Both the position numbers and the translations under genes were made by a program. From Streptomyces agglomeratus (lineage in GTDB: Bacteria > Actinomycetota > Actinomycetes > Streptomycetales > Streptomycetaceae): a stretch of 64,000 nt of DNA. The notes beneath the pieces are model-generated. The model worked only from the letters and a program-made list of their open reading frames with translations. It had not been told where the DNA came from and searched no databases. Positions 28,676-42,382 of the stretch are shown here, in pieces. Within the stretch, counting starts at the first letter, position 1, and each line of letters opens with the position of its first letter. The stretch is from assembly GCF_001746415.1 (NCBI RefSeq), contig NZ_MEHJ01000001.1:7074501-7138500 (forward strand), written 5' to 3'.

Positions 28676-28690
28676 TACGCTGGGCCCGTG
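28676..28690 (+). promoter_or_regulatory. Leaderless promoter -10 (TACGCT) at methyltransferase gene
   Basis: TACGCT at 28676-28681, a 6-nt gap and GTG at 28688, with no ribosome site. The geometry is the same as at 22147. Confidence 0.5.
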
Positions 28691-29416
28691 TTCACCTCCC
28701 AGGGCCCCACCCTCCGCGAGCTGGCCGTACAGGCTCTGTCCTCCATCGAGCGGGGCTACGACCTGCTGGCCCCCAAGTTCGACCACACCCCCTTTCGCAC
28801 ACCCGACCGCTTCCTCGACGCGGTCGCCGGAGCCCTGGAGCCCCTCGGCCCGTTCGGCGCGGGGCTGGACGTCTGCTGCGGCACCGGCGCGGGCGCGCGG
28901 GTCCTGCGCCCGCTGTGCCGGGAGCGGGTCACGGGGGTCGACTTCAGCGCGGGCATGCTGGCCGCCGCCCGCGAGGCGTCGGGCGACGACGGGAGGGGGC
29001 CCGCGACGGAGTGGGTGCGGGCGGACGCCCGGGCCCTGCCGTTCAGCAAGGAGTTCGATCTGGCGGTCAGTTTCGGGGCGTTCGGGCACTTCCTGCCCGC
29101 CGAACGGCCCGTGCTGTTCGGCGGGGTCCACCGGGCGCTGCGGCCCGGCGGACTCTTCGTCTTTCCCGTCGGAGCGCCCCCGCCCATCGGTTCACCGCTG
29201 TACTGGACGCTGCTCGGCTTCGACGCCGCCATGCGCGTGCGCAACGCGCTGTGGCGGCCGCCGTTCGTCATGTACTACCGGACGTTTCCGCTGGGCGGGG
29301 TGCGCGACGATCTGGTCAGGGCCGGGTTCACGGTGCGGCTCCAGCCCCTGGAGGAGTTCGGCCGGCGCGGCGACGGCAGCCCCAACTGGCGGCTGGTGGT
29401 GGCCCGCAGGGCGTGA
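28688..29416 (+). CDS. Class I SAM-dependent methyltransferase
   Basis: This 242-aa protein has motif I GLDVCCGTGAGARVLRPL, the acidic end of strand 2 (VTGVDFSAGMLAAA), DARALPFSKEFDLAVSFGAF (motif II/III), and ALRPGGLFVFPVG (post III). The fold is the ubiquinone/menaquinone-type class I methyltransferase. The C-terminal cap (MYYRTFPLGGVRDDL) determines substrate, which I cannot infer. No biosynthetic partner is adjacent. The start codon seems to be leaderless. Confidence 0.87.
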   Translation: MFTSQGPTLRELAVQALSSIERGYDLLAPKFDHTPFRTPDRFLDAVAGALEPLGPFGAGLDVCCGTGAGARVLRPLCRERVTGVDFSAGMLAAAREASGDDGRGPATEWVRADARALPFSKEFDLAVSFGAFGHFLPAERPVLFGGVHRALRPGGLFVFPVGAPPPIGSPLYWTLLGFDAAMRVRNALWRPPFVMYYRTFPLGGVRDDLVRAGFTVRLQPLEEFGRRGDGSPNWRLVVARRA

Positions 29417-29910: not shown

Positions 29911-30406
29911 GGGTGTCCCCTCCTGCTGCCGTCCGCGGCGGACGTTCGCTCTGACCGGTATTCCTACCCATGTCGCCGATGACCTAGGCGGGCCCGTTCC
30001 GGCAGGAAGTCGCGCGGTTTCTCCCGCGGTTGTGAAGTGGATTTCCGTAAGGGCGGTGCAACATCGGCGAATCTGCACATCGAATACGCAGGCGGCACAC
30101 CGTCTCCTAATAGTTGTCGCCGCGCTGACCTGCGGCTATGCGTGTCTGTGCGGGAATGTCCGCATCGGTCTCTCGTTGCCTGAAGGCCGCACCGGATTCA
30201 GCTCGGACGATCTCGTGAAGAACCTGTCACCAAGCCATGAACGCATGTGCACTTCGCGGCAATTCCAAGCAGAGATGTGCCCGGACCGGCAATGGCCCGA
30301 CTGGCTGCCCAACGCGCTTACGTGCTTTGATCCTTCGCACTGGGGCCAATCCGTCAGGCGCGGTCCCGGTAATTTCGAATATTCACCGCGAAGGGAAACT
30401 CGCATC
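29911..30406. other. Long divergent intergenic region upstream of GG-leader peptide, relatively A+T-rich
   Basis: This 496-bp stretch contains no gene I can support. A frame continuous with the peptide gene reaches back to 29891, but it lacks starts with ribosome sites and family features. Composition is visibly less G+C-rich than flanking genes, especially 30020-30400. Promoters for the SLT-like gene (-) and the peptide gene (+) must lie here. No second GG-leader peptide was found. Confidence 0.6.
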
Positions 30407-30631
30407 ATGAACTCCTCCCAGGTTGCGACCCAGGAAATCTCCGACAACGACCTGGACAACGTGTCCGGCGGCCTCCTCGGCGGCGTGGTCGGCAACGCCA
30501 CCGGCGTCCTCAACTCCGTCGTCCCCGTCTCGGGCACCGTGGGCTCCGCCCTCGGCACCGTCGAGGGCGTCACCGGCCTCAACACGGGCGCGGTCACGGG
30601 CATCGCCACCGCCACGGTCGCCGGCGTCTGA
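30407..30631 (+). CDS. Double-glycine-leader precursor peptide with glycine-zipper core
   Basis: ATG 30407 follows GAAGGGAAACT, giving 74 aa. Residues 10-22 (EISDNDLDNVSGG) form a typical GG leader, so a C39 peptidase should cut after Gly22. The 52-residue core contains only Gly, Val, Thr, Ala, Ser, Leu, Asn, Ile, Pro and one Glu: no Cys, Lys, Arg, His or aromatic residue. Two glycine zippers lie in series, G46-x3-G50-x3-G54 and G57-x3-G61-x3-G65. With no Cys it cannot be a lanthipeptide as such. The next three genes are its probable export machinery. A membrane-inserting bacteriocin or a self-assembling surface peptide both fit. Confidence 0.85.
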   Translation: MNSSQVATQEISDNDLDNVSGGLLGGVVGNATGVLNSVVPVSGTVGSALGTVEGVTGLNTGAVTGIATATVAGV

Positions 30632-30635
30632 TTCT

Positions 30636-30658
30636 CCGGTGCCGCCGAGCGGCACCGG
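30636..30658 (+). terminator. Hairpin directly after the peptide gene
   Basis: CCGGTGCCG (30636-30644) pairs with CGGCACCGG (30650-30658) around a 5-nt loop, starting 4 bp past the stop. It is probably a partial terminator or mRNA stabiliser. Confidence 0.65.
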
Positions 30659-30711
30659 TCACCAGCGGTGACTACGGCCCGTCGGCGCCCCCTCCTTGCC
30701 GACCGGCCGGA

Positions 30712-30750
30712 CCGTACGCCCCGGACCTCTCCACGGCCCGGGGCGTACGG
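30712..30750 (+). terminator. Second hairpin between peptide gene and exporter genes
   Basis: The 13-bp arms CCGTACGCCCCGG (30712-30724) and CCGGGGCGTACGG (30738-30750) are perfectly complementary around a 13-nt loop. It probably lowers read-through into the exporter genes. Confidence 0.65.
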
Positions 30751-30825
30751 ACGCCCCCGGATTTCTGACAGACCGACGCAGTCGGACCATCGCAGTGGGA
30801 TCATTGCGGTCGAGGGAAGAGTGTC

Positions 30826-31632
30826 GTGCAGTTTCGCCAACAGGCGCTTTCCAAGCTGCAATCGCCCGAAGAAATTGATCTGCCGGTGCGATTCGCCCGG
30901 CCCCAGGGCCGGCTTGTTCTGACCGTCACGGTCATCGTCATGATCGCCTCGGCCGTCTGGGCCGTGAACGGCACGGTGTCCACCACGGTCGCCGCCCCGG
31001 GAGTCCTCACCCACGCCCAGGGCAGTTACGTCCTCCAGAGCCCCGTGGCCGGCCAGGTCACCGCCGTACTGGCCGAGGAGGGCGAGCGCGTCTCGGCCGA
31101 CGCACCCCTGCTGAAGGTCCGCACCGCGCGGGGGGACGCCGTCGTACGCACCATCGCCGCGGGACGGCTGACGACACTCGTCGCCGCCATCGGTTCCGTG
31201 GTGACCACCGGAGCGGATGTGGCCGCCGTCGAACGGGTGAAGAACGCGGACGACCCCCTGATGGCGGTGCTGTACGTACCGGCCGAGCGCGGCGCCGGGG
31301 TTCCCGTCGGCGCGGCCGTCGACCTGAGCGTCCAGTCGGTCGCGACGCAGCAGTACGGCGTGCTGCGCGGCAAGGTCGCGTCCGTCGGCAGGACCGCCCA
31401 GACCCGCCAGCGCATCACCGGCTTCCTCGGCAGCGGCCAGCTCGGCGAGGAGTTCTCCGAGCAGGGCCAGCCCGTGGCCGTACTCGTACGCCTGGACCGC
31501 TCGGCCGAGGCCGAGTCGGGCTACTCCTGGTCGACTTCGCAAGGACCGCCGTACGCCGTCGAGTCCATGACGCTCGCCACCGGTTCCATCCGCCTCGCCG
31601 AGCAGCATCCGATCGATTGGCTGCTTCCGTGA
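30826..31632 (+). CDS. HlyD-like secretion adaptor (NHLM bacteriocin system type)
   Basis: GTG 30826 follows GAGGGAAGA, giving 268 aa. It has a cytoplasmic N-terminus, one membrane helix (RLVLTVTVIVMIASAVWAV), then a biotinyl-lipoyl-like barrel (GVLTHAQGSYVLQSPVAGQV, VLAEEGERVSADAPLLKV) with no long coiled coil. That is the short adaptor found in NHLM-type bacteriocin export clusters. It bridges the membrane exporter and the outside. Its stop overlaps the next start (GTGA). Confidence 0.87.
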   Translation: MQFRQQALSKLQSPEEIDLPVRFARPQGRLVLTVTVIVMIASAVWAVNGTVSTTVAAPGVLTHAQGSYVLQSPVAGQVTAVLAEEGERVSADAPLLKVRTARGDAVVRTIAAGRLTTLVAAIGSVVTTGADVAAVERVKNADDPLMAVLYVPAERGAGVPVGAAVDLSVQSVATQQYGVLRGKVASVGRTAQTRQRITGFLGSGQLGEEFSEQGQPVAVLVRLDRSAEAESGYSWSTSQGPPYAVESMTLATGSIRLAEQHPIDWLLP

Positions 31633-33905
31633 CCGCCCCGAACGAATCCGCGGCCCCGCCGCAGCCGCAGCTGCCGCCGCCGGGCCGCCGCAGACACCGC
31701 CCCGAGCCCGCGACGGGCGGGCGCCGCCGCGCCCGGCCCGTCCAGGTCAAGAAGCGCAGGGCCGTACGAACGCCCACGGTCCTCCAGATGGAGGCCGTGG
31801 AGTGCGGAGCCGCCGCGCTCGCCATGGTGCTCGCCCACTACGGGCGCCACGTGCCGCTCGAAGAACTCCGCATCGCCTGCGGCGTCTCCCGCGACGGCTC
31901 ACGGGCCAGCAACCTGCTCAAGGCGGCACGCGGTTACGGCCTCCAGGCCAAGGGCATGCAGATGGAGGCGACAGCGCTCGCCGAGGTCCAGGCGCCCGCC
32001 GTCCTCTTCTGGGAGTTCAACCACTACGTCGTCTACGACGGCATGGGGCGCCGCTTCGGCCGCCGGGGCGTGCACATCAACGACCCGGACAAGGGCCGCC
32101 GTTTCGTCGCCGCCGAGGAATTCGACACCAGCTTCACGGGCGTCGTCCTCGTCTTCGAACCCTCGGAGTCCTTCCGCCGCGGCGGACGCAGGCCGGGCGT
32201 CATGAGCGCCGTTCCCGCACGCATGCGCGGGACGACGGGCACCCTGCTGGCCGCGCTGCTCGCCAGCCTGCTGCTGGTCGCCGTCGGGGCGGCGGTGCCG
32301 GCGCTGAGCCGTACGTACATCGACATGTTCCTGATCGGCAACCGGACGTCGGTGCTCGGGCCGCTCTTCGCGTCCATGGCCGCCATGGTCACACTCACCG
32401 CCGTACTGACCGGACTGCAACAGGCGAACCTCCTGCGCGGGCGCATCATCTCGTCCACGCTGAGCAGCGCCCGGTTCCTGCGCCACCTGCTGCGGCTGCC
32501 CGTCACCTTCTTCGCGCAGCGCAGCCCGGCCGATCTCGTCCAGCGACTCCAGTCCAACGACGCGGTCGCCGAGACGCTGGCGCGCGACCTCGCCGCCGCG
32601 GGCGTGGACGGGGTGGTGGTGATCCTCTACGCCCTCCTGATGTGGACGTACGATCCCCAGCTGACGTACGTCGGAGTGATCGTCGCGCTGCTCAACGTGG
32701 TCGCGATGCGCATCGTGATCCGGCTGCGCGCCACGCACACGCAGAAGCTGCGCGCCGACAGCGCCCGGCTCACCAACACGTCGTACACCGGCCTTCAGCT
32801 CATCGAGACGATGAAGGCCACCGGCGGCGAGAACGGGTTCTTCCGCCGCTGGGCGGGACAGCACGCGACCACCCTGGACGTGCAGCAGCGGCTGGGCGTG
32901 CCCAGCGCGTTCCTGGCCGTCGTCGCGCCCACCCTCGCGACCCTCAACAGTGCGCTCATCCTGTGGATCGGCGGCCTGCGGGCCGTGGAGGGGCACATCT
33001 CCATCGGTCTGCTCGTCGCCTTCCAGGCGCTGGTGGCCCGCTTCACCGCGCCCATCAGCAGGCTCAACGGAGTGGCGGGCCGCATCCAGGACTTCGCCGC
33101 CGACGTGGCCCGGCTGAAGGACGTCGAGAACTTCCCGGTCGACGTCCTGTACTCGCGCCGCGAGCCGGACGAGAGCACCCGCAGGCTCAAGGGCCACGTG
33201 ACGCTCGAAGACATCACCTTCGGCTACAGCCCCCTGGACAAGCCGCTGCTCACCGGCTTCTCGCTGGCGGTCGGCCCCGGGCAGCAGGTCGCCCTCGTCG
33301 GCGGTTCCGGCAGCGGCAAATCGACGGTGTCGCGGCTCATCTCTGGGCTCTACACGCCCTGGGAGGGGACGATCCGGATCGACGGACAGCGCCTGGAGGA
33401 CATCTCCCGCAGCGCGCTGGCCGCCTCCGTATCCTTCGTCGACCAGGACGTCTTCCTCTTCGAGGGCACGGTCCGCGACAACGTGGCCCTGTGGGACCCC
33501 TCGATCCCGGACGACTCCGTCGTCGCCGCCCTCCAGGACGCCGCGCTGTACGACGTGGTCGCCCGGCGCCCGGACGGTATCCACAGCCGCGTCGAGCAGG
33601 ACGGCCGCAACTTCTCCGGCGGGCAGCGGCAGCGGCTGGAGATCGCCCGCGCCCTGGTCAGACGGCCGAGCATCCTCGTACTCGACGAGGTGACGAGCGC
33701 GCTCGACGCCGAGACGGAGCGGATCATCATCGACAACCTGAGGCGCCGGGGTTGCGCCTGCGTCGTCATCGCGCACCGGCTGAGCACGGTGCGCGACAGC
33801 GACGAGATCGTCGTACTCGACCACGGTTCGGTCGTCGAACGCGGCCGGCACGAAGACCTGGTCGCCGCCGGCGGAGCGTACGCCGAGCTGGTCAAGGAGC
33901 ACTGA
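31629..33905 (+). CDS. ABC exporter with C39 peptidase domain (NHLP/bacteriocin type)
   Basis: The start is GTG 31629, overlapping the upstream stop, giving 758 aa. After a Pro/Arg-rich leader, the C39 peptidase domain (about 47-180) shows Gln53, Cys59 (MEAVECGAAALAMVLAHYG), His132 (EFNHYVVYDG) and Asp152 (HINDPD), so it should be active against GG leaders. A six-helix exporter domain follows. The ATPase domain has GGSGSGKST, SGGQRQRLEIARAL and ILVLDEVTSALD. It should cut the leader of the 74-aa peptide and export the core. Confidence 0.94.
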   Translation: MTAPNESAAPPQPQLPPPGRRRHRPEPATGGRRRARPVQVKKRRAVRTPTVLQMEAVECGAAALAMVLAHYGRHVPLEELRIACGVSRDGSRASNLLKAARGYGLQAKGMQMEATALAEVQAPAVLFWEFNHYVVYDGMGRRFGRRGVHINDPDKGRRFVAAEEFDTSFTGVVLVFEPSESFRRGGRRPGVMSAVPARMRGTTGTLLAALLASLLLVAVGAAVPALSRTYIDMFLIGNRTSVLGPLFASMAAMVTLTAVLTGLQQANLLRGRIISSTLSSARFLRHLLRLPVTFFAQRSPADLVQRLQSNDAVAETLARDLAAAGVDGVVVILYALLMWTYDPQLTYVGVIVALLNVVAMRIVIRLRATHTQKLRADSARLTNTSYTGLQLIETMKATGGENGFFRRWAGQHATTLDVQQRLGVPSAFLAVVAPTLATLNSALILWIGGLRAVEGHISIGLLVAFQALVARFTAPISRLNGVAGRIQDFAADVARLKDVENFPVDVLYSRREPDESTRRLKGHVTLEDITFGYSPLDKPLLTGFSLAVGPGQQVALVGGSGSGKSTVSRLISGLYTPWEGTIRIDGQRLEDISRSALAASVSFVDQDVFLFEGTVRDNVALWDPSIPDDSVVAALQDAALYDVVARRPDGIHSRVEQDGRNFSGGQRQRLEIARALVRRPSILVLDEVTSALDAETERIIIDNLRRRGCACVVIAHRLSTVRDSDEIVVLDHGSVVERGRHEDLVAAGGAYAELVKEH

Positions 33906-33906
33906 C

Positions 33907-36756
33907 ATGTCGTCCGTACATCCGGCCGCCGTCGACGGCGGTGGCGCCGCCGTGCCCGACACGGTGACCTACGCCCTGGGCGGCCTCGGGGCTCCCGTCG
34001 ACTGCGCCGGTCTGCGCAGCCTTCCGCTGGAAGGGCCCCAGGTGCTGTGGCTCGTCGTGGGAGGCGCCCTGGACCTCTTCGCCGTGGACGCCGCACAGCA
34101 GGGGCACTGGCACTTCCTCGGCAGGCTGGAAGCGGGCGCGCTGCTGCTCGGCCCGGTCGAAGGCCCGCAGCACACCCTGCTCGGCAGGCCGTCGCAGGAC
34201 TGCCTGCTGCGGCGGATCCCGCTGCGGGAGCTGTACCGGCCTGCCGGGTACGCCGATCCGTACGCCGCCACCGACGCGGGGTACGAGAGCCCGCTCGACC
34301 ACGCCTTCGCGCTCGGCATCGGGCGCGGCCTGGGGGTGCTCTTCCAGGCCCCGCTGGACGGCCGTCCGGACCTGGAGGGGCCCGTGGGCGACGACGACGT
34401 GCTGTGGATGCCGGTGTCGCCCGGCAGCGTGCAGTACGGCGCCTCCTACAGCGCCGACGCCGCCTCCGACCTGCTGGTCGAGACGGCCATGTGGCAGCAG
34501 CTGGTGAACCAGCAGTACCGGCTGCTGTCCGCCGTCGACCACTGGATCGAGGAGCTGGAGCGCGCCCACGAGGACCGTACGGCCGCCGGCATCAAGGCGG
34601 GCGCGGCCGTCCGCGCGCGGGCCGACCAGGCCCTGGTCGCCTCCATCGGTCGCCCCGATCGGTCCGGGCGCGCCGCGGCCGGACCCGATCGCGCCACCGA
34701 CGACGCCACCTTCGCCGTCTGCCGCCGGGTGGCGGAGGCGGCCGGCATCACCCTCACCGAGCCCCCGAAGGGCGGCGCGGCTAACGACCGCGTCACCCCC
34801 GTCGAACGCATCGCGCTGGGGTCCCGCGTCCGTACCCGGGACGTCCGGCTCACCGGGCGCTGGTGGCGGACCGACTCCGGACCGCTGGTCGGCCACCGGG
34901 CCAAGTCCGGAGCCCCGGTCGCGCTGCTGTGGCGCCGCGGCGGCTACGAGTCGGTCAACCCGGCCTCCGGAATGCGGATGCGGATCGGCAGGGACAACGC
35001 GGACGACTTCGAGCCGCGCGCGGTCATGTTCTACCGCCCGCTGCCCGAACGCCCCATGACGCCGTGGCGCCTGCTGCGCTTCAGCCTCCGTGACACCCGC
35101 CCCGACCTGCGGAACCTGCTCCTCAGCGGCCTGGTGACGGTCGGTCTCGGCGGACTGGTGCCGATCGCCACCGGCCAGGTGCTCGGCGTGTACGTACCGA
35201 ACGCGGAGACCGGCCTCATCGTCCAGGTCTCGCTGGCCGTCATGATCACCAGCATCGTCACGGCGTCCTTCATGCTGCTCCAGAACCTCACCATCCTGCG
35301 CATGGAGGGCCGCATCGAGGCCACCCTCCAGCCGGCCGTCTGGGACCGGCTGCTGCGGCTGCCGACGAAGTTCTTCGCCGCCCGGTCCACCGGAGAACTC
35401 GCCAGCGCCGCCATGGGCATCAGCGCCATCCGCAGGGTGCTGTCCGGGCTCGGACCGGTGGCCGTGCAGGCGAGCACGGTCGGCGCGATGAACATCGTCC
35501 TGCTGTTCTGGTTCAGCGTGCCGCTGGCGCTCGCGGCGATCGCCATGCTCGTCGTCATCGGCGTGGTGTTCCTCGGGATGGGCCTGTGGCAGGTGCGCTG
35601 GCAAAGGCGCCTGGTCGAACTCGGCAACAAGCTCAACAACCAGGCGTTCCAGACCCTGCGGGGGCTGCCCAAACTGCGCGTCGCCGCCGCCGAGAGCTTC
35701 GCGTACGCCGCCTGGGCCCGCGAGTTCGCCCGCTCGCGCGAACTCCAGCAGCGCGCGGGCCGCATCAGGAACCTCACCACGGTCCTCGACGCCGTCTACC
35801 TGCCGCTCTGTTCGCTCATCATGTTCATGCTGCTGGCGGGCCCGGCGCGGGGCAGCATGTCGGCCGGCGCGTTCCTGACGTTCAGTACGGCCGTCACCAT
35901 GCTGCTGACATCGGTCACGCAGCTCACCGGCGCGCTCATCTCGGTCGCCGCCGTGCTTCCCATGTTCGAACAGATCAAGCCGGTCCTCGACGAGGCTCCG
36001 GAGGTACGCGGCGCCAGCGCCCAGCCCGGCACCCTGTCCGGCGGCATCGAGGCGCGCAAGCTCACGTTCCGGTACACCGACGACGGGCCGCTGGTCCTCG
36101 ACGACGTGTCGCTCGAAGTGAAGCCGGGGGAGTTCGTGGCGGTCGTCGGCCCCAGCGGCTGCGGCAAGTCGACCCTGCTGCGGCTGCTCATCGGCTTCGA
36201 CAAGCCGCTGTCGGGCAGCGTGCTGTACGACGGCCAGGACCTGGCGGCGCTCGACCAGGCGGCCGTACGCCGTCAGTGCGGTGTCGTACTCCAGAACGCG
36301 CAGCCCCTCACCGGATCGATCCTCGACTGCATCAGCGGCGCGGAGGTGTTCTCCCAGGAGGAGGTGTGGGAGGCCGCCGAGATGGCCGGTCTCGCCGAGG
36401 ACATCCGGCGCATGCCGATGGGCCTGCACACGATGATCTCCGGCGGCGGAGCCGTCTCCGGCGGCCAGCGGCAGCGGCTGATGATCGCCCAGGCGCTGGT
36501 ACGCCGACCTCGGATCCTCTTCTTCGACGAGGCCACCAGCGCGCTGGACAACGAGACGCAGCGCATCGTCATGGAGAGCACGCGCAGGCTGAGCGCCGGA
36601 CGCCTGGTGATCGCCCACCGGCTGTCGACGGTGATGGACGCCGACCGGGTGATCGTCATGGCGGACGGCAAGGTCGTCGAACAGGGACCGCCCGCGCGGC
36701 TGCTCGCCGACCCGGGCGGCCGGCTGCGCGAACTGGTGCGCCGCCAGCTGGCGTGA
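33907..36756 (+). CDS. Second ABC transporter ATPase/permease of NHLP system
   Basis: This 949-aa protein starts 2 nt after the previous stop. The N-terminal 350 residues have no C39 catalytic triad and include a charged domain (GRWWRTDSGPLVGHRAKSG, ALLWRRGGYESVNPASG) typical of the NHLP permease/ATPase partner. Six membrane helices span about 395-690. The ATPase has GPSGCGKST, SGGQRQRLMIAQALVRR and ILFFDEATSALD, with the switch His in IAHRLS. With the C39 protein it should form a heterodimeric exporter. Confidence 0.93.
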   Translation: MSSVHPAAVDGGGAAVPDTVTYALGGLGAPVDCAGLRSLPLEGPQVLWLVVGGALDLFAVDAAQQGHWHFLGRLEAGALLLGPVEGPQHTLLGRPSQDCLLRRIPLRELYRPAGYADPYAATDAGYESPLDHAFALGIGRGLGVLFQAPLDGRPDLEGPVGDDDVLWMPVSPGSVQYGASYSADAASDLLVETAMWQQLVNQQYRLLSAVDHWIEELERAHEDRTAAGIKAGAAVRARADQALVASIGRPDRSGRAAAGPDRATDDATFAVCRRVAEAAGITLTEPPKGGAANDRVTPVERIALGSRVRTRDVRLTGRWWRTDSGPLVGHRAKSGAPVALLWRRGGYESVNPASGMRMRIGRDNADDFEPRAVMFYRPLPERPMTPWRLLRFSLRDTRPDLRNLLLSGLVTVGLGGLVPIATGQVLGVYVPNAETGLIVQVSLAVMITSIVTASFMLLQNLTILRMEGRIEATLQPAVWDRLLRLPTKFFAARSTGELASAAMGISAIRRVLSGLGPVAVQASTVGAMNIVLLFWFSVPLALAAIAMLVVIGVVFLGMGLWQVRWQRRLVELGNKLNNQAFQTLRGLPKLRVAAAESFAYAAWAREFARSRELQQRAGRIRNLTTVLDAVYLPLCSLIMFMLLAGPARGSMSAGAFLTFSTAVTMLLTSVTQLTGALISVAAVLPMFEQIKPVLDEAPEVRGASAQPGTLSGGIEARKLTFRYTDDGPLVLDDVSLEVKPGEFVAVVGPSGCGKSTLLRLLIGFDKPLSGSVLYDGQDLAALDQAAVRRQCGVVLQNAQPLTGSILDCISGAEVFSQEEVWEAAEMAGLAEDIRRMPMGLHTMISGGGAVSGGQRQRLMIAQALVRRPRILFFDEATSALDNETQRIVMESTRRLSAGRLVIAHRLSTVMDADRVIVMADGKVVEQGPPARLLADPGGRLRELVRRQLA

Positions 36757-37828: not shown

Positions 37829-38119
37829 TCGGTCATTCTATGCCGCACCCGATCAAGCTGCGCCAGTTGTCGGCATCGACGGCCGGATCTCTGATGCGGA
37901 AGCCGGTTGATCACTTCCATGCCGTACCCGCTAAGCTCCCTTGCAGCGCTGCCAGTTGACGTGACCCTGACCCTGTCCTGTCCTGCCCTGCTGTGCAGCC
38001 GCGCCCGTCGCGAGGCGGATCATCCCGGTGATCCGGCGAGTGCCGCCACACCAGGCACATGCCGTGCGACGAGGGCGCCTCCTACTTCCCTGTTCGATCG
38101 CGTTGGTTTGAGGATGCAG

Positions 38120-39715
38120 ATGGAACTTGCCACTACGCCGCAGGCGGCCCGGGCCCCGGCCGCCCGGCACATCTGGTGGCTGCTGCCACTCGGATTAGGC
38201 GTCGCCTCCGTCGTCGCCCTGGCCGCGGGCCCCGACGGCACCCGAATACCCGTCGGCGCGGCGGGACTGGCCGCGACCGCGGCGACCGCCGTATGCGTCC
38301 GGCTCCTGCTCCGGTCCCAGCTGCGACTGCGCGACAGCGCCGCCGACTTCATGGCGAGGCAGGCGCAGCACTCCCAGGAGTGGCAGCAGCACATGATCAC
38401 CCTGGAGGGGCAGCGGAACGCCGAGCGCTCGGCCCAGGAAGCCCGGCTCGCCGAAGAGGCCAGGGCCTGGCAGGGCCGGCTGGAGTACCAGCGGGCGCTC
38501 GTCGCCCGGCTCGGGGAGGAGTTCCTCCCCGACGCGCTGAAGCGGCTGCGCGACGGCGAATCGATCGACGACGTACTCTCTCCCCTCGCCCAGGACTCGG
38601 GCGTGTCACCGGAGTTCAGGCGTGAACTGCGCAAGGTCCTGCGGACCGCGCTGATCGCCGTCGAGGAGGAGTTCAACCGCAGCACTTCCGCGGAACAGGC
38701 CGTCATCAGCATCGGCAGCCGTATCCACGTCCTCACCAGCAAGCTGCGCGGCCGGCTGCACGAGATGCAGGGCGAGCACGGCCGCCTCCCGGCCGTCGCC
38801 CAGGGCCTCATGGACCTGGACCAGGAGATCGGCCCCGCCGACTGTCTGGCCGCGAGCATCGGCGTACTCGGCGGCTCCGACCGTCCCGGGCGCCAGTGGC
38901 AGGAACCGCAGCGCCTGCTCAGCGTGGTCCGAGGCGGCGTCGGGCGGATCAAGGACTTCGACCGCGTACAGGTGCGCCACCTCCCCGAACTCGGCGTGGA
39001 CGGCGGTCTCGTCGACCACCTCACGCTCGTCTTCGCCCACCTCCTGGACAACGCCACCCGGTATTCGCCGCCCACCGAACCGGTGGTCGTCTCCGGCAAG
39101 GAGGTGCCCAACGGCGTCGGGATCGAGATCCAGGACGCCGGAAAGGGCCTGACCGAGGAGAAGAAGCGCCAGGCCCTGGAATCGCTGGAGGGAGTGGCGG
39201 CGGGCCCCGGCCTGGGCGGTCTGTCCGAGGACGCGAACCTGGGCCTGCGCGTCGTGGGGAAGCTCACCCGCAAGTACGGGATCAGAGTGACCTTCGCCGA
39301 CTCGCCCTGGCTCGGCACCTCCGTGGTCGTGGTCGTTCCGCACAAGTACTTCAGCCCCCTGCCGGCAGCCCTGGTGGCCGACAGCCCGACCGGGTCGGTC
39401 GCGCTTCCGGCGCCGCTCGGTGAGCGGTCCCTCGCCCCGGCGGCCCCGTCCGGCGGCCCGCACTCCGGGGCGGCCCCCGGTGACGCGGGCACCGACACGA
39501 CGCCGGGCGGCCTGCCCCGGCGCAGGAGCCGGCGCGGCGAACCGGCGACGGCGGCGCTGTCCACCACCGCGTCCGCGGCCGTGTCCGCCACCGCGTCCGC
39601 CGCGGCCGACGCCGCCGCCGTGCCGCCGGACTCGTCCTTCTCCGGCCTGGCCGCGTTCGCCACCACCGCCGGACGTGACACCGGCGGGAAGCCCCGTACC
39701 GAAGAGAGCGACTAG
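38120..39715 (+). CDS. cvnA: Conservon sensor-like histidine kinase homologue CvnA
   Basis: I choose ATG 38120, with GAGG at 38110-38113; ATG 38114 is also possible. The protein has about 531 aa. Two membrane segments lie near the N-terminus (HIWWLLPLGLGVASVVALAA and a second). An Arg/Glu-rich coiled coil follows, then a GHKL ATPase domain with N box VFAHLLDNATRYSPPTE and DAGKGLTEE. There is no clear phospho-acceptor His box, as usual in CvnA. The tail is low-complexity Ala/Ser/Pro. It opens a five-gene operon with cvnBCD and a P450; conservons act as a membrane heterocomplex controlling development and antibiotic production. Confidence 0.9.
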   Translation: MELATTPQAARAPAARHIWWLLPLGLGVASVVALAAGPDGTRIPVGAAGLAATAATAVCVRLLLRSQLRLRDSAADFMARQAQHSQEWQQHMITLEGQRNAERSAQEARLAEEARAWQGRLEYQRALVARLGEEFLPDALKRLRDGESIDDVLSPLAQDSGVSPEFRRELRKVLRTALIAVEEEFNRSTSAEQAVISIGSRIHVLTSKLRGRLHEMQGEHGRLPAVAQGLMDLDQEIGPADCLAASIGVLGGSDRPGRQWQEPQRLLSVVRGGVGRIKDFDRVQVRHLPELGVDGGLVDHLTLVFAHLLDNATRYSPPTEPVVVSGKEVPNGVGIEIQDAGKGLTEEKKRQALESLEGVAAGPGLGGLSEDANLGLRVVGKLTRKYGIRVTFADSPWLGTSVVVVVPHKYFSPLPAALVADSPTGSVALPAPLGERSLAPAAPSGGPHSGAAPGDAGTDTTPGGLPRRRSRRGEPATAALSTTASAAVSATASAAADAAAVPPDSSFSGLAAFATTAGRDTGGKPRTEESD

Positions 39716-39719
39716 CCCC

Positions 39720-40130
39720 ATGACGCAGCAGCACACCGACGTGAGCTGGGCGCTCCGCGACCTGACGGAGAGCATCCAGGAGATCCGCTTCGCCCTCGTG
39801 GCGTCCAGCGACGGCAAGGCCATCACCTCGTACGGCGCCGAGGACCCCGACGACGTCGACCGCTTCGCCGCCGTCGTCGCGGGCCTCCAGGCGCTCGCGC
39901 AGCCCGTCGCCGCGCAGTTCCCCAAGTACAGCGGGCAGTTGCGCCTGGCGATGATCGAAGTGGACGGCGGGCACCTCTTCGTGGTGCGGGCCGGAGTGGA
40001 GACGTACCTCGGCGTCCTCGCCAAGGAGGGCCTCGACCAGGGCCTGCTCGGCCACCAGATGAGGGACCTCGCCCGCAGGATGGGCGAACTCCTCGGAACC
40101 ACCCCGCGGCTGGAGGAGCACTCTGAATGA
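39720..40130 (+). CDS. cvnB: Conservon roadblock/LC7 protein CvnB
   Basis: ATG 39720 is 4 bp past the CvnA stop; 136 aa. The roadblock/LC7 fold is recognisable: IQEIRFALVASSDGKAITSYG, VVAGLQALAQPVAAQF, LRLAMIEVDGGHLFVVRAG. It resembles MglB, the GTPase-activating partner of MglA-like GTPases, and would act on CvnD. Its last codons overlap the start of cvnC (ATGA). Confidence 0.93.
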   Translation: MTQQHTDVSWALRDLTESIQEIRFALVASSDGKAITSYGAEDPDDVDRFAAVVAGLQALAQPVAAQFPKYSGQLRLAMIEVDGGHLFVVRAGVETYLGVLAKEGLDQGLLGHQMRDLARRMGELLGTTPRLEEHSE

Positions 40131-40495
40131 GTGATCCCCACGGGCCCACGGACCCGTCCGGTCTCGAGCGCTACTACGTCCTCACCGGCGGCCGCAGCGG
40201 ACCGGGCGGGGCCGCGCTGGGCCTCGACGTGGCGACCCTCATCGTGTCCCGCTCCGCGCCCGTCGCGGGTATGCAGCACGAGCACGAGCGGATCGTCCGG
40301 TGGTGCCGCGATCCGCTCTCGGTCGCCGAGCTCGGCGCCCATCTCGGACTGCCCTTCAACATTCTCGCGGTGCTGGTGGCCGACCTGCTGGAAGCAGGCC
40401 GGGTGGAAGCCCGTGACCCTATCCCGGCTTCCGCCGGCCATGGGCCGGACTTCGCGCTCCTCGAGGAGGTACTCAGTGGATTACAACGGCTTTGA
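40127..40495 (+). CDS. cvnC: Conservon DUF742 protein CvnC
   Basis: The 122-aa DUF742 protein starts in the ATGA overlap with cvnB. It has RYYVLTGGR and a winged-helix-like region (EHERIVRWCRDPLSVAELGA, LGLPFNILAVLVADLLEAG) ending FALLEEVLSGLQRL. CvnC is a small adaptor within the conservon complex. The cvnD start (GTG 40476) lies 20 bp inside its 3' end. Confidence 0.93.
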   Translation: MSDPHGPTDPSGLERYYVLTGGRSGPGGAALGLDVATLIVSRSAPVAGMQHEHERIVRWCRDPLSVAELGAHLGLPFNILAVLVADLLEAGRVEARDPIPASAGHGPDFALLEEVLSGLQRL

Positions 40496-41096
40496 CCGCC
40501 CGGACTGGCCCAAGTCGTCCGGCTCACTGCCCGCCGAAAGCCGTTCGGTCAAAGTGATGATCGCCGGCGGCTTCGGCACCGGTAAGACCACCATGGTCCG
40601 CTCCGTGAGCGACATCAAACCGCTCACCACCGAGGAGACCCTGACCCAGGCCACCGTCGGCGTCGACGACCTGGTCGGCGTGGCGGACAAGGAGAAGACC
40701 ACGGTCAGCCTGGACTTCGGCCGGATCGGACTCAGCGATCAGCTCGTGCTCTACCTCTTCGGTACGCCCGGCCAGGAACGCTTCTGGTTCCTGTGGAACG
40801 GCCTGTTCAAGGGGGCACTCGGCGCGGTCGTCCTGGTGGACACCCGCCGTCTGGAGTCGAGCTTCCGGGCCATCGAGGAGATGGAGCGCCTCGACGTCCC
40901 CTTCGTCATCGCCCTCAACGTCTTCCCGGACTCCAAGGACCACCCCATCGACGAGATCAGGGACGCCCTGGACATCACCGACCGCACACCGGTCGTCGCG
41001 TGCGACGCGCGCGACCGGGGATCGAGCCGTGACGTCCTCATCGCGCTGATACGTCATCTCAAGGAACGCTCTGCCGCAGCCCTGGAGCCCCGATGA
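40476..41096 (+). CDS. cvnD: Conservon GTPase CvnD
   Basis: GTG 40476 follows GAGGAGGT within the cvnC coding sequence; 206 aa. Ras-like motifs: P-loop AGGFGTGKTTMV, switch II region LFGTPGQERFWFLW, and LNVFPDSKDH at the guanine-specificity loop, where NKxD has become NVFP, the usual conservon variant. It is the output GTPase thought to be regulated by CvnB. ATGA links it to the P450 gene. Confidence 0.93.
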   Translation: MDYNGFDRPDWPKSSGSLPAESRSVKVMIAGGFGTGKTTMVRSVSDIKPLTTEETLTQATVGVDDLVGVADKEKTTVSLDFGRIGLSDQLVLYLFGTPGQERFWFLWNGLFKGALGAVVLVDTRRLESSFRAIEEMERLDVPFVIALNVFPDSKDHPIDEIRDALDITDRTPVVACDARDRGSSRDVLIALIRHLKERSAAALEPR

Positions 41097-42382
41097 ACTC
41101 CCCGTCCTCACCCGGTCCGTACGACGGGACCGCCCAGGAGGGCCCGCCGGCAGGCTGCCCCCTCAGCTCCGGCGCGCCGGGCGGGACCACGCGGCTCTAC
41201 GGCCCCGAGGCGTCGGCCGACCCGTACGGCATCTACGCCGGACTGCGCAAGCGGTACGGCGCGGTGGCGCCCGTACTGCTCGAAGGCGACGTACCCGCCT
41301 GGCTGGTGCTCGGTTACCGGGAGAACCGGCGCGTCCTGGACAACCCGCGCCAGTTCACCCGCGATTCGCGGATCTGGCGCGACTGGGAGGAGGGCCGGAT
41401 CGAGCCCACCTCGCCCCTCGTCCAGATGGTGGGCTGGCGGCCCGACTGCGTCTCCCAGGACGGCGAGCCGCACCGACGGCTGCGCGGGGCGGTCACCGAC
41501 AACCTCCAGGCCCTGGCCGGGCGCGGCATCCGGCGTCATGTCACGCACTTCGCGAACAAGCAGATCGACGCGTTCGCCGGTACGGGGCGGGCCGACCTGG
41601 TGGCCCAGTACGCCGAGTACCTGCCGATGCTCGTACTGACGCGGCTCTTCGGGCTCGCGGAGGGGGAGGGGCGGCGGCTGGCCACCTCGTGCGCCGAGGT
41701 CATCAAGGGCGGGGAGGACGCCCTCCACCACAACGACGTCATCATGCGGGTCCTCGCCGAACTCGCCGAGCGCAAGCGCGACGAGCCGGGCTCCGACTTC
41801 ACCACCGGCCTCATCGAGCACCCGGCGGGCCTGGACGAGGACGAGATCCTCAGCCATCTGCGCCTGGTACTGATCACGGCCCACACCACGACCAGCAACC
41901 TCCTGGCGCGGGTCCTGCAACTCCTCCTCACCCACCGCTCCCACCTGTCCGGCCTGATCAGCGGGCAGCTGAACATCTCGGCGGTGGTGGAGGAGGTCAT
42001 GTGGAACACTCCGCCGCTGGCGGTGTGCCCGGGGCGGTTCGCAACGGCCGACCTGGAGCTTGGCGGCCAGCACATCAAGACGGGCGACCTGCTGGTACTC
42101 GGCCTGACGGCCGGGAACCTGGACCCGGAGATCCGGCCCGACGCCGGCGTCTCCGTGCAGGGGAACCAGGCGCATCTGGCGTTCAGCGGCGGTCCGCACG
42201 AGTGCCCCGGCCAGAACGTCGGCCAGGCCATCATCGAGACCGCCGTCGACGTCCTGCTGCACCGGCTGCCGGGCCTGCGCCTGGCCACTCCGGCCGGTGA
42301 GCTGACGTCCACCGCCTCGACGTGGGAGTCACGGCTGGACCGCATCCCGGTCGAGTTCGTGCCGCAGGGCGCCGGGGTCTGA
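41093..42382 (+). CDS. cvnE: Cytochrome P450 CvnE, CYP157-like, without ExxR
   Basis: This 429-aa P450 starts in the ATGA overlap with cvnD. The heme-Cys loop is LAFSGGPHECPGQNVG. The I-helix LVLITAHTTTSNLL lacks the usual acid/alcohol pair. The K-helix reads VVEEVMWNTPP: the Arg of ExxR is Trp. Absence of ExxR is the known hallmark of the CYP157 family, whose members sit in Streptomyces conservons. The usual CYP154 partner gene is missing here; instead a terpene synthase converges from the other side, separated by a strong terminator. Confidence 0.9.
   Translation: MNSPSSPGPYDGTAQEGPPAGCPLSSGAPGGTTRLYGPEASADPYGIYAGLRKRYGAVAPVLLEGDVPAWLVLGYRENRRVLDNPRQFTRDSRIWRDWEEGRIEPTSPLVQMVGWRPDCVSQDGEPHRRLRGAVTDNLQALAGRGIRRHVTHFANKQIDAFAGTGRADLVAQYAEYLPMLVLTRLFGLAEGEGRRLATSCAEVIKGGEDALHHNDVIMRVLAELAERKRDEPGSDFTTGLIEHPAGLDEDEILSHLRLVLITAHTTTSNLLARVLQLLLTHRSHLSGLISGQLNISAVVEEVMWNTPPLAVCPGRFATADLELGGQHIKTGDLLVLGLTAGNLDPEIRPDAGVSVQGNQAHLAFSGGPHECPGQNVGQAIIETAVDVLLHRLPGLRLATPAGELTSTASTWESRLDRIPVEFVPQGAGV

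Follow-up and report, generated by a model that had tools for sequence, protein, structure and literature searches.

The locus described here lies in a 64,000-nucleotide stretch of the Streptomyces agglomeratus genome (contig NZ_MEHJ01000001.1, positions 7,074,501 to 7,138,500; hereafter the window) and comprises a gene for a small peptide with a double-glycine (GG) leader, followed by three genes of an NHLP-type exporter. The locus as such is not new, as a probable Streptomyces coelicolor counterpart, SCO0753-SCO0756, has been in print since 2019. The corresponding paper describes SCO0753 as a Cys-free hydrophobic peptide that is probably exported and conserved in many Streptomyces (PMC6629963). 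According to this study, activation of the two-component system SCO5282/5283 increases the expression of SCO0753 and the hyphae disperse: no gene is more strongly over-expressed than SCO0753 in the dispersed strain SCO5282-D125G (log2 6.3; 8.1 by quantitative PCR), SCO0754-0756 are likewise up, and SCO0753-0756 are almost silent in the null mutant. The authors propose a possible effect of SCO0753 on the hyphal surface. In an aor1 mutant, SCO0753 is up together with two SapB-cluster genes (PMC5733086), and SCO0756 appears in expression lists (PMC5882110, PMC6414726). In the set of papers covered, our full-text search for SCO0753 found no mentions beyond PMC6629963 and PMC5733086.

Gene order, the length and description of the peptide and the presence of a Ppx neighbour in relatives lead us to infer that the window locus is orthologous to SCO0753-SCO0756. 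Both comprise a Cys-free hydrophobic peptide (77 residues as annotated in S. coelicolor), a HlyD protein and two ATP-binding cassette (ABC) proteins in identical order, and the description of SCO0757 fits the Ppx-GppA gene found downstream in 13 of 81 loci. The annotated length of SCO0753 is compatible with a start inside the conserved ribosome-binding site GAAGGGAA; the Met of close relatives gives 71 residues. The flanking genes differ, as does the core in the S. tendae and S. parvulus relatives, with 48 residues compared with 52 in the window, which has extra glycines at positions 25/26, 46 and 61.

Peptide and exporter in the genus Streptomyces

A preliminary description of this DNA, made from the sequence alone, had proposed a 74-residue peptide with a leader ending in SGG and a 52-residue core devoid of Cys, Lys, Arg, His and aromatic residues (Phe, Trp and Tyr), followed directly by a HlyD adaptor, a C39-peptidase ABC exporter and a second NHLP-type ABC protein. 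The coding sequence, the composition of the peptide and the family searches bear out each of these points, all genes being located on the same strand (Table 1). The leader reads MNSSQVATQEISDNDLDNVSGG, and the core consists of 12 Gly, 12 Val, 8 Thr, 6 Ala, 5 Leu, 3 Asn, 3 Ser and one residue each of Glu, Ile and Pro. For the peptide itself, no Pfam or NCBIfam family scored above its cut-off. All three exporter proteins exceed the cut-offs of the NHLP export families, HlyD by a bare margin, and the window's genome contains one exporter above cut-off. By sequence, the nearest match of the C39 domain is 6mpz (150 bits); the aligned segments VECGAA, NHYVV and NDPDKG are taken to be the sites of the catalytic Cys, His and Asp. 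The C39-ABC protein matches 4ry2 over residues 54-760. Both entries are PCAT-type peptidase-exporters, known as LahT and PCAT1. Dedicated NHLP-type export with cleavage at the GG site, as anticipated in the preliminary description, is thus predicted.

At E<=0.01, a protein search with the window peptide retained 274 of 296 candidates as homologues; of the 120 listed, all that bear an organism name belong to Streptomyces and are mostly labelled 'type A2 lantipeptide'. In a sample of 295 congeneric genomes (peptide counted at E<=0.01), 211 contain the peptide and 219 the exporter. Both occur together in 209 genomes, the peptide alone in 2, the exporter alone in 10 and neither in 74, and hence peptide and exporter seem to be carried by most Streptomyces (approximately 70% of the sampled genomes). 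An order-level draw of 293 genomes, overlapping with the genus sample, contains the exporter in 212 genomes and in 4 of 9 genera. The figure of 209 denotes co-occurrence in the same genome; adjacency was covered by 80 named loci and by the 30 exporter stretches treated below. The named loci, the best 80 of 421 relatives in a scan of named genome contigs, belong to Streptomyces and, in two cases, to Actinacidiphila, the nearest being those of S. chryseus and S. albidochromogenes (99% peptide identity). The HlyD gene comes next after the peptide gene in 80/80; both ABC genes follow in 78, the contigs of the other two stopping first. Together with the number of homologues, this shows that the locus goes beyond a chance arrangement. 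This genus-wide pairing, which answers the homologue and synteny search suggested in the preliminary description, is new.

The neighbourhood of the peptide was assessed in 81 loci with called genes of at least 40 residues, counting clusters present in at least 12 loci as recurrent. By this measure, neither a recurrent candidate for an immunity gene nor a recurring receptor gene was detected, though a shorter, unlinked or lineage-specific immunity gene may exist. The radical-SAM motif CxxxCxxC is absent from the 1207 called genes, a LanC-like pattern was matched once, in L060 at a distance of ~8-10 kb, and no recurrent LanM, LanC or other enzyme for ribosomally synthesised and post-translationally modified peptides (RiPPs) is among the 25 families listed of 112 (Pfam, 85 of 182 neighbour representatives). 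Likewise, no Cys is present in the 106 cores analysed, comprising 81 of type A and 25 of type B. The statement that the peptide lacks a modification enzyme thus holds for these loci, and the contrary case named in the preliminary description, loci that consistently combine LanM or radical-SAM enzymes with Cys-bearing cores, was not found.

Core pattern, core exchange and control region

The preliminary description had emphasised two tandem glycine zippers in the core. GxxxGxxxG motifs are present at positions 46/50/54 and 57/61/65 of the window peptide, and a third at 25/29/33; compared with shuffles of the same core, there are 6 GxxxG pairs vs. 2.37 expected (p 0.007) and 3 GxxxGxxxG motifs vs. 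0.43 expected (p 0.015). The six glycines are not equally kept in the 120 listed homologues, since G57 is found in 120, G50 in 115, G54 in 111 and G65 in 73, but G46 in only 28 and G61 in only 8, and the literal double zipper was therefore dismissed as the conserved feature. Across 33 non-redundant cores, pairs of Gly are over-represented at distances of 3, 4, 7, 8 and 11 and under-represented at 1, 2, 5, 6 and 9, and hydrophobic residues recur every 100 degrees. Tested separately, the 55 A cores have their hydrophobic peak at 100 degrees (z 33) and the 25 B cores theirs at 110 degrees (z 13); A cores are depleted at 160-180 degrees, and the window core alone peaks at 100 degrees (p 0.0015). 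An AlphaFold model of low confidence is all-helical, with three helices (13-37, 42-56 and 60-73). Judged from the sequences, the conserved feature is a helical face of Gly and small residues, forming an alpha-helical stripe rather than a beta pattern.

The net charge ranges from 0 to -5 in 80 of the 81 A cores and in all B cores, the one positive A core (L076) apparently being frame-shifted; cationic cores are thus not the rule. Lys, Arg or His occur in 3/81 A and 12/25 B cores, and aromatic residues in 3/81 and 4/25, respectively. In line with the preliminary description, the core fits neither the lanthipeptides nor the classic cationic bacteriocins. Taken together, its reading stands with respect to export, the GG site and the lack of a recurrent modification enzyme, and is not borne out as worded with respect to zipper conservation.

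Exporter regions were examined in 10 genomes with an exporter only and in 18 with weak peptide hits, resulting in 30 stretches, as two genomes have two exporters. A GG peptide lies beside the exporter in 24 of them, namely in all 18 weak-hit genomes and in 6 of the 10 exporter-only genomes, where the peptides are Cys-free, Gly/Val-rich, of the GG type and located at the orthologous exporter. In these 24 stretches the C39-ABC protein is 76-85% identical to that of the window, while the peptides match the window peptide weakly or not at all; one orthologous exporter thus carries different Cys-free cores. This exchange of cores is new. No GG peptide was seen beside the distant exporters of two exporter-only genomes (L116 and L120; C39-ABC 51% and 48% identical to that of the window), in two stretches ending at contig ends (L118, 79%; L121, 57%) or beside the second exporters of two genomes (L117 and L119, 48%). 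At one B-type locus (L115), two different Cys-free GG peptides stand in tandem upstream of one exporter, a possible two-peptide arrangement.

The window's genome also encodes an orphan GG peptide of 72-73 residues (L002:1498-1719, minus strand; C1:5128752), which is unlinked to the exporter and has one Cys in its core. At E<=1.5e-12, relatives of the orphan were found in 14 of 295 genomes; this count includes the window's genome and also G089, in which the peptide of the exporter locus is itself the relative. An exporter is present in each of the 14, for which the chance is ~0.02 over the 13 other genomes, assuming independence. At E<=0.001 the orphan query hits 115 genomes, many of these matches being the locus peptide. 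When the 13 unlinked copies were aligned, GCGTGNTNNCAT, similar to the -10 region of the locus, was present in 13/13 and GTGAAGAAGT in 5/13. The orphan may be exported in trans by the same exporter, as a possible second substrate, and its putative promoter with similarity to that of the locus is new.

Upstream of the peptide gene, TTTGATCC occurs in 78 of 81 A-type regions compared with 0.5 expected, and a direct repeat of four 11-bp units scores above every shuffle in 79 of the 81. In each of the 73 A-type regions with the -10 pattern, the distance from the array down to the -10 is 109 or 110 bp. Among the B-type upstream regions, 11 of 23 score above every shuffle for the array; in the 16 with the -10 pattern, the array lies at 109 bp in 8 and at 87 bp in 1, and 7 score too low for placement. 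Because of the repeat spacing, the array is a probable site for an OmpR-family response regulator. It is the sole match in the window's genome (G000:C1:7104715-7104752; up to 3 mismatches), and the regulon can therefore not be extended by searching for the array. The fixed arrangement of a predicted promoter with an 11-bp repeat array is new. Downstream, the 55 nucleotides after the stop codon fold with a z below -2 in 59 of 81 loci (median -4.56; mononucleotide shuffles), the window's own hairpin reaching only -1.4. Such a hairpin could keep the peptide transcript above the exporter transcript.

Table 1. Features of the locus, with positions in the window
Feature	Position	Strand	Basis and remarks
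Tandem 11-bp repeat array GTGAAG-N5-GTCACC-N5-ATGAAC-N5-TGCAC	30215..30252	+	Probable OmpR-family response-regulator site (family inferred)
Conserved promoter	30299..30331	+	-35-like GACTGG (30299-30304), extended -10-like TGCTTTGAT (30323-30331); promoter role inferred
Shine-Dalgarno-like GAAGGGA	30390..30396	+	From sequence; kept in upstream alignment
GG-leader precursor coding sequence, 74 residues	30407..30631	+	Leader 30407-30472 (22 residues, ending SGG), core 30473-30628 (52 residues)
Hairpin directly after peptide stop	30637..30657	+	Possible partial terminator or stabiliser between peptide and exporter genes
HlyD-type secretion adaptor (NHLM_micro_HlyD)	30826..31632	+	TIGR03794, 156.4 bits (cut-off 156.2); HlyD_3, 1.1e-8
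C39 peptidase/ABC exporter (NHLM_micro_ABC1)	31617..33905	+	TIGR03796, 1017.8 bits (cut-off 853.3); Peptidase_C39, 3.6e-35
Second NHLP-type ABC permease/ATPase without peptidase (NHLM_micro_ABC2)	33907..36756	+	TIGR03797, 885.4 bits (cut-off 709.4)

Apart from the exporter, no neighbour is present in more than 36 of the 81 loci. In 36 loci, an alpha-lytic-type serine protease is encoded upstream of the peptide in the opposite orientation (e.g., L077:7889-9493, minus strand); a SpoIIE phosphatase is found in 35, AHSA1 and MFS proteins in 18 each, a metallophosphatase in 14, and Ppx-GppA and an ArsR-type regulator in 13 each; being lineage-limited, these genes were assigned to the flank and rejected as parts of the system. 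The window's own flanking genes were found in at most 11 loci. Open reading frames resembling a sensor kinase, a roadblock protein, DUF742, a GTPase and a P450 stand in a row at 37907-42382, which we take to be conservon-like.

Possible functions of the exported peptide

In the reading to which we give an even chance, the peptide is helical, unmodified and subject to regulation, and its target is the envelope or hyphal surface of the producer itself. The conserved promoter would be switched on by a response regulator, for which SCO5283, acting directly or indirectly, is a candidate in S. coelicolor, and the hairpin found after the stop codon at most loci makes an excess of precursor over exporter probable. 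Cleavage after SGG would be carried out by the C39 domain, and the HlyD/ABC1/ABC2 complex would export a slightly anionic, hydrophobic peptide of 43-62 residues. With its hydrophobic residues and Gly at helical spacing, this peptide should bind to or insert into membranes and self-associate via the Gly face, and it may alter hyphal adhesion or buffer envelope stress rather than kill rivals. More tentatively, the loci could represent a genus-wide, unnamed class of secreted morphogens, that is, unmodified, Gly-striped alpha-helical GG peptides whose cores are interchangeable, with no fewer than two types at the locus and an unlinked orphan type with a similar promoter, which would share one conserved NHLP exporter, envelope two-component control and a SapB-like influence on hyphal cohesion and surface state.

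Several points weigh against a role at the producer's surface. The orthology with SCO0753 was deduced from order, length and description and not from the SCO0753 sequence. The dispersal of the SCO5282 mutant is attributed by its authors mainly to lowered matB (PMC6629963), which renders the link to the peptide correlative, and the accessible parts of the literature searched contain no biochemical or knockout data on the peptide. In the window core there is a lesser periodicity peak at 130 degrees (p 0.01), six orphan cores lack the peak at 100 degrees (z -1.4; 110 degrees, z 3.1; 160 degrees, z 2.7), and the AlphaFold model is poor, with a low mean predicted local distance difference test score of 58.4. 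Moreover, a methyltransferase gene (28688-29416, plus strand; Methyltransf_25, 5.3e-21) is located 1 kb upstream of the window peptide. Finally, the ratio of non-synonymous to synonymous changes (pN/pS) is higher in the core (0.62) than in the leader (0.27) and the second ABC gene (0.29; 984 pairs, which are non-independent, with pS lowered by codon bias), and a bacteriocin would show such core variability likewise.

An unmodified class II-like bacteriocin, the core of which would form helical pores in competitors via the Gly face, with immunity provided by the exporter or an unlinked gene, comes next and is in our opinion possible but unlikely. The pairing of a GG leader with a C39-ABC exporter, known from class II, is consistent with it, as are the weak match of the window leader to TIGR01847 (bacteriocin_sig; 15.5 bits, cut-off 15.7), the core being more variable than the second ABC gene, and the swapping of core types at one orthologous exporter. 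However, no immunity gene recurs among the called genes of at least 40 residues in the 81 loci, the cores are almost without exception neutral or anionic, and the presence in most sampled genomes under a conserved promoter is unlike that of strain-specific bacteriocins. In addition, pN/pS stays below 1 in the core, so that diversifying selection is not seen. An action on surface or envelope fits the distribution, the regulation and the absence of a linked immunity gene better; a bacteriocin kept by most of the genus would be unusual.

It is rather improbable that the peptide serves as a signal sensed by producers, for instance via a membrane kinase such as SCO5282. Pheromones are exported by ComA-type C39 exporters, and ComA, the competence factor transporter, is among the C39-ABC matches; the strong two-component regulation reported for the S. 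coelicolor relative (PMC6629963) points in the same direction. The extracellular loop of SCO5282, however, is given as 4 residues in the same paper, the core types differ widely, a pheromone would be expected to be smaller and less hydrophobic than the core, and a recurring receptor gene is missing near the 81 loci.

Equally poor are the prospects of a lanthipeptide or another RiPP with the enzyme encoded elsewhere, or nearby in some lineages, as implied by the database name 'type A2 lantipeptide', which most NCBI-named entries among the listed homologues bear and which is repeated in one paper (PMC13047742). The cores are rich in Thr and Ser, the window peptide reaches 16.6 bits against L_biotic_typeA (cut-off 21.7), the orphan core contains a Cys, and methyltransferase families match up to 4 of 85 scanned neighbour representatives. 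Yet the cluster of the window methyltransferase is confined to 6 of 81 loci, and there is neither a radical-SAM motif nor more than the single distant LanC-like pattern among the called genes. As the 81 A and 25 B cores have no Cys, lanthionine rings cannot form; the name lantibiotic is thus impossible, and we rejected the lanthipeptide label, a linked synthetase likewise not being found. The last option, which the preliminary description had raised, a chaplin-like peptide that in the strict form self-assembles as beta amyloid on hyphae, is scarcely credible, since its hydrophobic Gly/Val/Thr-rich composition is outweighed by the absence of a chaplin family among the Pfam matches up to E 1, the GG leader in place of a Sec signal, the helical rather than beta periodicity with its face of small residues and the all-helix, low-confidence AlphaFold model.

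If the peptide indeed shapes hyphal clumping or envelope stress, a morphogenetic factor so far missing would be added for a genus of industrial use, and efforts to engineer dispersed growth would have a target. With the SCO5282/5283 strains already published, its function can be tested now.

Comparison with known systems

SapB/RamS, the lanthipeptide surfactant of Streptomyces, is likewise a small, secreted hydrophobic peptide. The window-type cores differ from it in being Cys-free, helical and Gly-striped, without a linked lanthionine synthetase found; SapB-cluster genes and SCO0753 are co-induced in the aor1 mutant (PMC5733086). Compared with PCAT-type peptidase-exporters, to which the C39 domain and the ABC exporter are related through the matches to 6mpz and 4ry2, the window system adds a HlyD protein and a second, peptidase-less ABC subunit. 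GxxxG motifs also occur in class IIb bacteriocins. Like unmodified class II bacteriocins, the window peptide has a GG leader and a C39-ABC exporter; the window-type core is anionic, however, the locus is genus-wide, no linked immunity gene was found, and two-component control is reported for the S. coelicolor relative (PMC6629963). From the three-gene NHLP/NHLM export system (PMC2887384), the locus is set apart by its short GG leader of 22 residues, which matched no nitrile-hydratase- or Nif11-like leader family in Pfam or NCBIfam up to E 1, and by the lack of a recurrent modification enzyme; it has in common with this system all three export components (TIGR03794, TIGR03796 and TIGR03797), each scoring above its cut-off.

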